Assembly: GCA_009926625.1 (NCBI GenBank)
Contig: RFON01000013.1
Location: forward strand, 1 to 64,000
Reading direction: 5' to 3'
DNA length: 64,000 bases
Source: Planctomycetota bacterium
GTDB taxonomy: Bacteria; Planctomycetota; Phycisphaerae; Phycisphaerales; SM1A02
Positions 14,318-16,776 of the stretch are shown here, piece after piece (within the stretch, counting starts at the first letter, position 1; the number at the start of each line of letters is the position of its first letter). The position numbers and the translations under genes were made by a program. The notes beneath the pieces were generated by a model. That model was not told the origin of the DNA and ran no database searches. It saw only the letters and a program-made list of their open reading frames with translations.

Positions 14318-14881
14318 ATGGCTTCCCGGTACGAGCGGATGTGCGGCGGCGTGCTTCAAGTCGACGCGCGCAGCGGCGCCCTGCGCACCCGCTGGCGCGC
14401 CGAGGCGCCACGGAGGCGCGCACTGGCACGAGACATCAACGACGCGCGACTGCTTCGAGATGGGTTGCGCATGCTCCGCGCGTGGCGACGAACCGGCGAG
14501 GTCGATGTTCGATTGCTCGCCCCGCTGCTTCCTGCGGCGAGTGCGTTCACCAGCGCCTGTTGGCTTGCAGCTGCGCAGATCCCGCGCGGACAAACCTGCA
14601 CCTACGCAGAACTGGCAGCGAGGGCAGGTCGCCGCGGTGCTGCGCGCGCTGCGGCATCGGCAATGGCGCGCAACCCGCTGCCACCGCTGGTCCCCTGCCA
14701 CCGCGTCGTTTCGCGCGGCGGCATCGGCGGCTTCTGCGGGGTTGCACAGCGACAGCAGCACCACTGGGCAATCCGCCTCAAGCACGCGCTGCTTCGACGC
14801 GAGCGTGCGATTGGTCCTTACACTTCCACCCCCGCGCCGCGGGCAATCGGTCGAGCGCAACAGCGAAGGAGTCATTCATGA
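14318..14881 (+). CDS. ogt: Methylated-DNA--protein-cysteine methyltransferase-like
   Basis: About 187 residues. The C-terminal half has the alkyltransferase active site PLPPLVPCHRVV (acceptor Cys127), the preceding IPRGQTCTYAELAARAG helix-turn-helix and the following RGGIGGF. The N-terminal half is short and Arg-rich. The family moves O6-alkyl groups from guanine onto its own cysteine in a suicide reaction. The arginine finger position and Asn hinge (AMARNPLPP) are retained. The start at 14318 follows the TATCAT box; an in-frame ATG at 14291 also exists. The gene overlaps the next gene as ATGA. Confidence 0.85.
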   Translation: MASRYERMCGGVLQVDARSGALRTRWRAEAPRRRALARDINDARLLRDGLRMLRAWRRTGEVDVRLLAPLLPAASAFTSACWLAAAQIPRGQTCTYAELAARAGRRGAARAAASAMARNPLPPLVPCHRVVSRGGIGGFCGVAQRQQHHWAIRLKHALLRRERAIGPYTSTPAPRAIGRAQQRRSHS

Positions 14882-16776
14882 AAGTCACGATGGTCGGAAC
14901 GGGTTATGTCGGGCTGGTCACGGGCGCATGCTTCGCGGACATGGGAAACACCGTCACATGCCTCGATGTGGATGCGGCCAAGATCGAGACGCTCAAGCGC
15001 GGCGAGAGCCCGATCTACGAGCCCGGACTCTCGGAGATGATCCAGCGCAACGCGGAAGCGCATCGCTTGCACTTCACGACCGACAAGTGGGAGGCGTATC
15101 GCGAGGCGCGAATCATCTTCATTTGCGTCGGAACGCCGAGCAGCGATGATGGCAGCGCAGACCTGAAGTATGTGCTTCGTGTGGCTGAGGACATCGCCGA
15201 AGCGATCGAACGCCTCGGCACGGGGAGCCAGCCGAAGACGGTGGTGGTGAAGAGCACCGTGCCCGTGGGAACGAGCCACCGTGTGCGCGATGCGATCCGT
15301 GCGAAGACCAAGGTGCCCTTCCATATCGCCGACAACCCCGAGTTCCTGAAGGAAGGCGATGCCATCAATGACTTCATGAAGCCCGACCGTGTGGTGTGCG
15401 GCGTCGATGACCCAACCACGGGCGAACTGATGCGCACGCTGTACGACCCCTTCGTGCGACAGGGCAATCCGATCTTCGTGATGGATGTCCGCAGCGCCGA
15501 GATGGTGAAGTATGCGAGCAATGCCATGCTCGCATGCAAGATCTCGTTCATCAATGAAATCGCGAACCTGTGTGAACGCACGGGTGCTGACATCAACGCC
15601 GTCCGCGAGGGCATGTGTTCCGACAAGCGAATCGGCAACCAGTTCCTGTACCCCGGGCTCGGCTATGGCGGCAGCTGCCTGCGCGGATCGCATCTTGTGC
15701 GCATTCGCGATGCGCATGGCGAGAGCACGCTGCGGCTCGACGAGTTGTTCACGGGCACCGATGATGGAGCGCATGAGTTGTCGGGCGTCGAAGTGCTCTC
15801 CTGGTCGCCGCTTGATCGTCCCGCTGCATTCCGCCGCGTTGTTGGGGTCAGTCGACGCTTCCATGTTGGACGCGGCGTTGAGATTGAGTTGTCCTGTGGC
15901 ACTCGGCTTGTGATGACCGCGGACCATCCGATGGTCGTGCTGCGCCGCGGCGCCGAACCACTGGTGTTTCCAGCGAACGTGGTCTGTGAGGGCGACCTGC
16001 TGCCCTGCGTGGCTGGGGCGACCGCGGACATCGGCACCGATCCGCGGGTCGAGCCGCATGGGTCGGCGGAGTGGTGTTCATCCCGCCAAGTCTCGACAGG
16101 CGCAATTTCGGCAGTTTTGGAGGTTTCTGGCGCGGCGCGGGTCGTTTCCATTCGGCAGATCGACCTGGCGGAACATGTGTTTTCCGTCGAGGTGCCCGAT
16201 GCCCACACCTTCGTCACCTGCGGTGGAGTGGTCGTTCACAACTGCTTCCCCAAGGACACCCAGGCGGTCGTTTCGATGGGGCGCGAACTCGGATTCCCAT
16301 GCAAACTGAACGCGGCGGTTCATGAGGTGAACCAGGACCAACGCGCCCACTTCTGGTCCAAGGTGGAACAGGAGCTCGGAGCGAATCTGAGCGGTAAATC
16401 CTTGGCATTTTGGGGGGTTGCGTTCAAGCCGAAGACCGACGACATCCGCGAGGCGCCGAGCCTGACGCTGATGGAAAGAGCCATCAAGGCGGGCGCCAAG
16501 GTGTGCGCGTACGACCCTGTTGCGCTCGAGCACCTCGCGCATGAGATGCCCGCCGTCGCTCGCGCGGAGGACATGTACAGCGCACTCGACGGTGCCGACG
16601 CGCTGGTGATCTGCACCGAATGGGCCGAGTTTCGCGCTCCAGACTTCGCGGAAATCCGTCGGCGGCTTGCCAAGCCCGTCATTTTCGATGGGCGAAACCT
16701 GTTCCGCCGGGCGCAAATGCAGGAAGCTGGGTTCACCTACGCCTCCGTTGGGCGTGCCACGGTGCGCCCGAAGTGA
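14878..16776 (+). CDS. ugd: UDP-glucose 6-dehydrogenase interrupted by a mini-intein
   Basis: A 632-codon precursor. Extein parts: a Rossmann NAD domain (VGTGYVGLVTGACFADMG at the start), the central lysine region MVKYASNAMLACKISFINE, then GYGGS (262-266); after the insert, CFPKDT (from residue 456) and the C-terminal UDP-binding domain (FWGVAFKPKTDDIREAPS). Removal of residues 267-455 leaves 443 residues, a normal bacterial length. The enzyme oxidises UDP-glucose to UDP-glucuronate for surface polysaccharides. The catalytic cysteine of GGSCFPKD is the residue just after the insert, so the precursor should be inactive until spliced. The ATG overlaps the ogt stop and has an AAGGAG box; a TACACT inside ogt (14819-14824) may add a promoter. 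Confidence 0.96.
   Translation: MKVTMVGTGYVGLVTGACFADMGNTVTCLDVDAAKIETLKRGESPIYEPGLSEMIQRNAEAHRLHFTTDKWEAYREARIIFICVGTPSSDDGSADLKYVLRVAEDIAEAIERLGTGSQPKTVVVKSTVPVGTSHRVRDAIRAKTKVPFHIADNPEFLKEGDAINDFMKPDRVVCGVDDPTTGELMRTLYDPFVRQGNPIFVMDVRSAEMVKYASNAMLACKISFINEIANLCERTGADINAVREGMCSDKRIGNQFLYPGLGYGGSCLRGSHLVRIRDAHGESTLRLDELFTGTDDGAHELSGVEVLSWSPLDRPAAFRRVVGVSRRFHVGRGVEIELSCGTRLVMTADHPMVVLRRGAEPLVFPANVVCEGDLLPCVAGATADIGTDPRVEPHGSAEWCSSRQVSTGAISAVLEVSGAARVVSIRQIDLAEHVFSVEVPDAHTFVTCGGVVVHNCFPKDTQAVVSMGRELGFPCKLNAAVHEVNQDQRAHFWSKVEQELGANLSGKSLAFWGVAFKPKTDDIREAPSLTLMERAIKAGAKVCAYDPVALEHLAHEMPAVARAEDMYSALDGADALVICTEWAEFRAPDFAEIRRRLAKPVIFDGRNLFRRAQMQEAGFTYASVGRATVRPK
15676..16242 (+). other. Mini-intein within ugd (189 residues, no endonuclease)
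   Basis: Begins with Cys1 (CLRGSHLVRI, block A). Block B is GTRLVMTADHPMVV, with the TxxH pair that activates the N-terminal bond. It ends with block F (VFSVEVPDAHTFVT) and block G (VVVHN), followed by Cys+1 of the host. These are all residues needed for class 1 protein splicing: Cys1, B-block Thr/His, penultimate His, terminal Asn and Cys+1. The middle has no LAGLIDADG or HNH motif, so it is a mini-intein that cannot home by itself. Five further cysteines lie inside. A Hint domain of another kind is unlikely because host motifs join exactly across it. Confidence 0.93.

Follow-up and report, generated by a model that had tools for sequence, protein, structure and literature searches.

Inteins are known from UDP-glucose 6-dehydrogenase (UGDH), in which the 'udp' intein allele has been listed for seven Halobacteria, six other Euryarchaeota, including Methanocaldococcus jannaschii, and two bacteria, belonging to Fervidibacteria and Dictyoglomus, and has been suggested to be old, as it spans both class and domain boundaries (Soucy et al. 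2014, PMC4071816). In this study, we analyzed a 64,000-nucleotide stretch of a Planctomycetota draft genome (contig RFON01000013.1, positions 1 to 64,000; hereafter the window), in which the UGDH gene (ugd) carries an insert of 189 amino acids (aa) directly before the codon of the catalytic cysteine. We consider it very likely that this insert represents a 'udp'-type class 1 mini-intein, located between Ser266 and the catalytic cysteine, which derives from a LAGLIDADG-bearing ancestor, has been immobilized, and splices routinely. In UGDH, the cysteine of the GGSCFPKD motif acts as the nucleophile in thiohemiacetal formation (Cys276 of the human enzyme, PMC3184952; Cys260 of S. pyogenes, PMC4794789), and the aspartate four residues past it holds the active water, as described in the same two papers. 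An earlier reading of this DNA (the original prediction) had named both this role of the motif and the archaeal precedent in Methanocaldococcus, in agreement with these sources. The features of the locus are as follows.

14878-16776, plus strand: UGDH open reading frame (ORF) with the in-frame intein, 632 aa; stop codon 16774-16776.
14878..15675, plus strand: N-extein of UGDH (266 aa), comprising the NAD-binding domain and the larger part of the central domain, C-terminal GYGGS (PF03721, E 1.7e-62; PF00984, E 6.3e-27; alignment to solved UGDHs).
15676..16242, plus strand: mini-intein, 189 aa, Cys1 to His188-Asn189 (PF14890 below and TIGR01443 above cut-off, PDB inteins, predicted intein fold, same-junction relatives).
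15916..15927, plus strand: block B, T81-A82-D83-H84, with Thr B:7 and His B:10 in the published block nomenclature (invariance of T81, D83 and H84; roles as given in PMC4031507).
16015..16128, plus strand: linker, intein residues 114-151, at the spot of the endonuclease region in a 490-aa relative (alignment gap against that full-length intein, substitution rates, low model confidence).
16177..16224, plus strand: block F region, intein residues 168-183, with Ser170 (F:4) and Cys182 (invariance of Ser170; alignment to the Asp of the Pho RadA intein).
16237..16242, plus strand: His188-Asn189, C-terminal splice residues (sequence; HN in 46 of 54 related loci).
16243..16773, plus strand: UGDH C-extein, 177 aa, N-terminal CFPKD (PF03720, E 3e-30).
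16243-16245, plus strand: codon of the catalytic Cys of UGDH (role as given in PMC3184952 and PMC4794789).
16255-16257, plus strand: codon of the Asp four residues after the catalytic Cys (role as given in the same papers).

All three UGDH domains are thus matched in the host protein, and the exteins joined without the intein (266 + 177) give an enzyme of 443 aa. Within the intein-bearing chain, the NCBIfam subfamily model TIGR03026 scored above its cut-off and the equivalog models below theirs, so that specificity for UDP-glucose is a sequence-based assignment. The catalytic residues E155, K211, N215, C456 and D460, whose human equivalents were assigned by motif and spacing, are invariant in 40 of 40 precursors. 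The insertion point falls exactly between GYGGS and CFPKD. K211 and N215, which match the catalytic Lys and Asn, are located in the N-extein, and the residue right after the intein is the GGSCFPKD cysteine; the insertion divides the active site, and the unspliced chain would therefore very probably be inactive, unable to complete catalysis. The coordinates, length and junctions of the insert, as well as the 443-residue product, are those originally predicted, and the proposal that Cys+1 is the enzyme nucleophile stands too, with the correction that this residue belongs to the C-extein and not to the intein. The source genome contained this one ugd match only.

Several lines of evidence identify the insert, on its sequence, as an intein beyond chance. 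The Intein_splicing profile PF14890 matched it with an E-value of 1.2e-7 (32.1 bits, under the curated Pfam cut-off of 35.8), and the C-terminal intein model TIGR01443 reached 20.3 bits (cut-off, 15.6). Its best solved relative is the Pho RadA intein (E 1.3e-5), and three genomes of the same genus carry inserts that are 70-79% identical at the same junction. The AlphaFold2 (AF2) model of the insert has the intein (HINT) fold, with a predicted local distance difference test (pLDDT) score of <50 over model residues 134-151, i.e. intein residues 129-146; the model of the 632-aa precursor had a mean pLDDT of 82.9 and a predicted template modeling score (pTM) of 0.68. PF14890 was the sole Pfam match of the window intein at E <= 0.001, no endonuclease family matching it, and a PF14890 search of the source genome found no further intein beyond this single match.

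The class 1 splicing residues described in PMC4031507 (Cys1, Thr, His, penultimate His, Asn and Cys+1) are all present, as Cys1 (codon start 15676), Thr81-x-x-His84, His188, Asn189 and Cys+1 (codon start 16243). The presence of the complete set and the absence of an endonuclease had both been anticipated, and these residues place the element, which lacks an endonuclease, among the class 1 mini-inteins. Splicing would begin with a thioester at Cys1 and its transfer to Cys+1, followed by cyclization of Asn189 aided by His188, and a final acyl shift would yield the 443-aa UGDH, in which the former Cys+1 serves as nucleophile. One assisting residue is unusual. Block F:4, a less conserved and non-defining position that is mostly Asp (PMC4031507), is Ser170 in the window; Ser occupies F:4 in all 55 UGDH inteins that we aligned, as T81, D83 and H84 do their positions. 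Since it is common to the whole group, this Ser is a group trait rather than a sign of decay, and it offers a handle on how the splicing steps of UGDH inteins are coordinated when the usual Asp is absent.

When 19 genomes of the genus were searched with the N-extein, 18 yielded ugd as a single gene; G018 had an additional match of 140 aa, located at the end of a contig. As to the empty sites for which a survey had been proposed, 13 of these 18 genes have an uninterrupted GYGGSCFPKD. The remaining five carry an intein at the junction: those of the window and G010 (189 aa each), G015 and G016 (205 aa each) and G020 (490 aa), of which only the last matched LAGLIDADG. The four mini-inteins share 68-79% pairwise aa identity and the same codon, all four keep the core splicing residues, and none of their ORFs has an internal stop. 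Three states of one intein site are therefore found in close relatives (empty, endonuclease-bearing and mini), and the genus represents a compact natural series for endonuclease loss with intein retention. Across the family, a profile of the UGDH intein alignment (A1) matched in 7 of 181 genomes, i.e. the five genus inteins and two weak HINT-like matches, which were set aside; the latter span 70 and 64 positions of the model and fall within very long ORFs (2668 and 2905 aa) of two other family genera (G064 and G001; L101 and L102). A match in G075 (E 9.6e-4) was set aside as well, as the ORFs of its locus did not read as UGDH-like.

Beyond the genus, a degenerate motif for the occupied site, which demands C-[codon with middle T]-x-G after GGS and misses inteins with other starts, matched 68 stretches in the GTDB collection. 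These comprised 54 complete inteins (four from the window's genus), five non-inteins as read (L024, L026, L042, L041 and L028), eight cut off before the C-junction (L015, L017, L025, L038, L040, L052, L059 and L073) and one with a stop. By record, the complete loci span 13 phyla, of which the most frequent are Chloroflexota (16), Actinomycetota (13), Myxococcota (7) and Planctomycetota (6, including the four above), with nine archaeal loci. The intein is followed by CFPKD in 53 and by CFGKD in one, and it ends in Asn in 53 (HN 46, SN 5, KN 1, DN 1) and in Gln in one. For the alignment, in which L003, L004 and L005 represent the identical L066, L060 and L069, Intein_splicing matched all 55 inteins, the window's included, at E <= 0.001, and LAGLIDADG_3 matched 46 of them, being missing in exactly the nine that are shorter than 250 aa.

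Some individual loci from this search merit mention. Five other UGDH mini-inteins of 181-204 aa lack LAGLIDADG (L009, L012, L016, L029 and L064, from Chloroflexota, Myxococcota, Actinomycetota and Planctomycetota), and these do not form one clade with the window's. A mid-size, 331-aa UGDH intein in a Gaiella metagenome-assembled genome (MAG; L045:3704-4696) has a LAGLIDADG match at 181-263 and is perhaps in mid-decay of its endonuclease. The UGDH intein at L039:6233-7651 ends in GQ, not HN, before CFPKD. In Halobacteriales (L067, near 528), an intein-like frame has a stop 345 codons past Cys1 and no C-junction, through decay or a frameshift. Three Rhizobium UGDH-like proteins without intein (L024, L026 and L042) read GGSCFPGD, with Gly for the Lys before the catalytic Asp. 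As to a vehicle, neither a search of 50,697 phage records with the window intein nor a search of viral_contigs with the occupied-site motif gave a match, and the halobacterial UGDH intein gave only a 23% match (a helicase gene, one plasmid); a phage or plasmid vehicle was accordingly rejected.

In a tree built on the splicing domains of UGDH inteins only, the four genus mini-inteins form one clade (100/100), to which the 490-aa intein of G020 is sister (100/99). A long branch (1.07) leads to the minis, as against a short one (0.032) for the 490-aa form, so that the mini splicing domain seems to have evolved rapidly. The mini state requires six changes on this tree, or at least four when only strongly supported branches are counted. 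A single clade of all nine minis was rejected (p-AU 0.0004), so that endonuclease loss at the UGDH site looks recurrent. In the same tree, the partner of a Gribaldobacteria intein is nanoarchaeal (100/91), and that of a Borrarchaeota intein comes from Chloroflexota (99/99); L021:6271-7662 and L074:4843-6276 are apparent cross-domain transfers, with binning errors as the alternative. For the window's lineage, these relationships suggest descent from an intein that occupied this junction and bore LAGLIDADG; the endonuclease would have been lost before or in the ancestor of the four-species clade, and the intein would thereafter have been inherited with the gene. The intein is probably no longer mobile.

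Selection on the gene was estimated from ratios of nonsynonymous to synonymous rates (dN/dS) by NG86, as YN00 failed on many pairs; dS was near saturation in several pairs. Over the six pairs of mini-bearing species, dN/dS was 0.030-0.056 for the exteins and 0.147-0.219 for the whole inteins, and the splicing blocks are under purifying selection (0.10-0.144). The linker, with limits set by hand and dS computable in four of the six pairs, gave 0.25-1.18, a far weaker constraint than that on the splicing blocks, and this relaxed part corresponds to the low-confidence part of the AF2 model. In the empty-site species, the same enzyme gave 0.042-0.143 (28 usable of 78 pairs). UGDH is thus not relaxed in the species that bear the mini-intein, which argues that splicing works.

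Five points weigh against our overall interpretation. The PF14890 score lies below the Pfam cut-off, as do those of the endonuclease-bearing 490-aa relative (33.3 bits) and seven of eight other minis scanned. The F:4 Ser departs from the usual Asp. With MAG completeness at 91%, a second ugd could be missing from the source genome. Purifying selection indicates that splicing is needed, but says nothing on whether it is unregulated. Finally, the tree of exteins unites the four mini species in one clade (90/100) and places G020 apart from them, amid empty-site species (88/95), so that descent within the genus was not simply vertical; this tree has two outgroup rows with very long branches and strong support on only 2 of its 17 inner branches. 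The intein may have moved within the genus, arrived several times, or been lost repeatedly from an older state.

The alternative with most in its favor is that conditional splicing of the retained mini-intein switches on UDP-glucuronate production after translation, perhaps under redox control exerted through its cysteines. Its insertion sets the nucleophile apart from the other active-site residues, and the loss of the endonuclease with retention of the intein under purifying selection is compatible with a use to the host. Moreover, Cys74 and Cys182 (Cys198 in the 205-aa forms) occur in each of the four genus minis, whereas the 490-aa relative lacks a cysteine at the corresponding positions; Cys104 is common to all five, and a redox-toggled intein, the class 3 DnaBi1 with its disulfide toggle, has been published (PMC6195587). 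However, 13 of the 18 ugd genes in the genus manage without an intein, and native intein sites are generally near active sites (mean 8.3 A, versus 21.1 A for other Cys/Ser/Thr; PMC3359363). The junction choice fits a homing site picked for its conservation, because the same junction is used across 54 complete loci of 13 phyla by inteins that mostly bear LAGLIDADG. Retention would be expected anyway, as a fixed mini-intein must go on splicing (argued in PMC4071816). We therefore regard conditional splicing as unlikely, and the proposal of a redox-sensitive on-switch in the original prediction as unsupported, although the two clade-specific cysteines may keep the idea alive. In a fuller version, given still less credence, the four-species clade would hold a domesticated homing intein that shed its endonuclease, changed rapidly in its splicing domain and gained Cys74 and Cys182 as fixed residues, and that makes the splicing of the only UGDH redox-responsive. 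If true, intein thiol chemistry would gate the making of the enzyme's own catalytic thiol, and the idea is amenable to test, as UGDH activity would appear only after splicing if the precursor is inactive.

That the insert no longer splices, leaving a dead gene or an inactive protein, is very improbable: the F:4 Ser might point that way, and splicing itself is something we infer, but the strong constraint on the exteins, the retention of the core residues throughout the four minis, and their stop-free ORFs argue against it. An assembly or binning artefact is hardly credible, since, although the genus is represented by draft genomes, each in 30-310 contigs, similar inserts occupy the same codon in four separate genomes, the ORF is open throughout, and intein dS (0.65-1.46) is of the same order as extein dS (0.49-0.89).

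Routine splicing of an immobilized mini-intein thus remains our preferred interpretation, and the described systems place it further. Among the papers listed in a literature search on inteins with UGDH or planctomycetes, none concerned a planctomycete UGDH intein by title or opening of the abstract, and PMC2814812 has no occurrence of UDP, glucose or active site; we make no claim of unpublished status. The Pho RadA mini-intein (PDB 4e2u, 2lqm and 4e2t) differs in having another host gene, and Asp at F:4 where UGDH inteins have Ser. The closest full-length form, the 490-aa intein of G020 (the same intein as in L048), shares the junction and 46% aa identity over 189 aligned codons, and differs in that ~319 aa separate its residues 116 and 436, a stretch represented by ~18 aa in the window intein; LAGLIDADG_3 matches residues 338-416 of the 490-aa form (59.6 bits, cut-off 22.5). 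The 'udp' allele has the same host gene, and its list in PMC4071816 names no planctomycete, unlike the window. When compared with known UGDH inteins, as had been suggested, the insertion point was the same as in the 54 complete loci, including the full-length halobacterial L044 at GGS|CFPKD, in agreement with an old, domain-spanning 'udp' allele; for the M. jannaschii copy, the shared allele name suggests the same codon. The most fitting place for the window intein is therefore within the known UGDH ('udp') intein kind, as an addition in reduced form, presumably at the same codon as the published copies.
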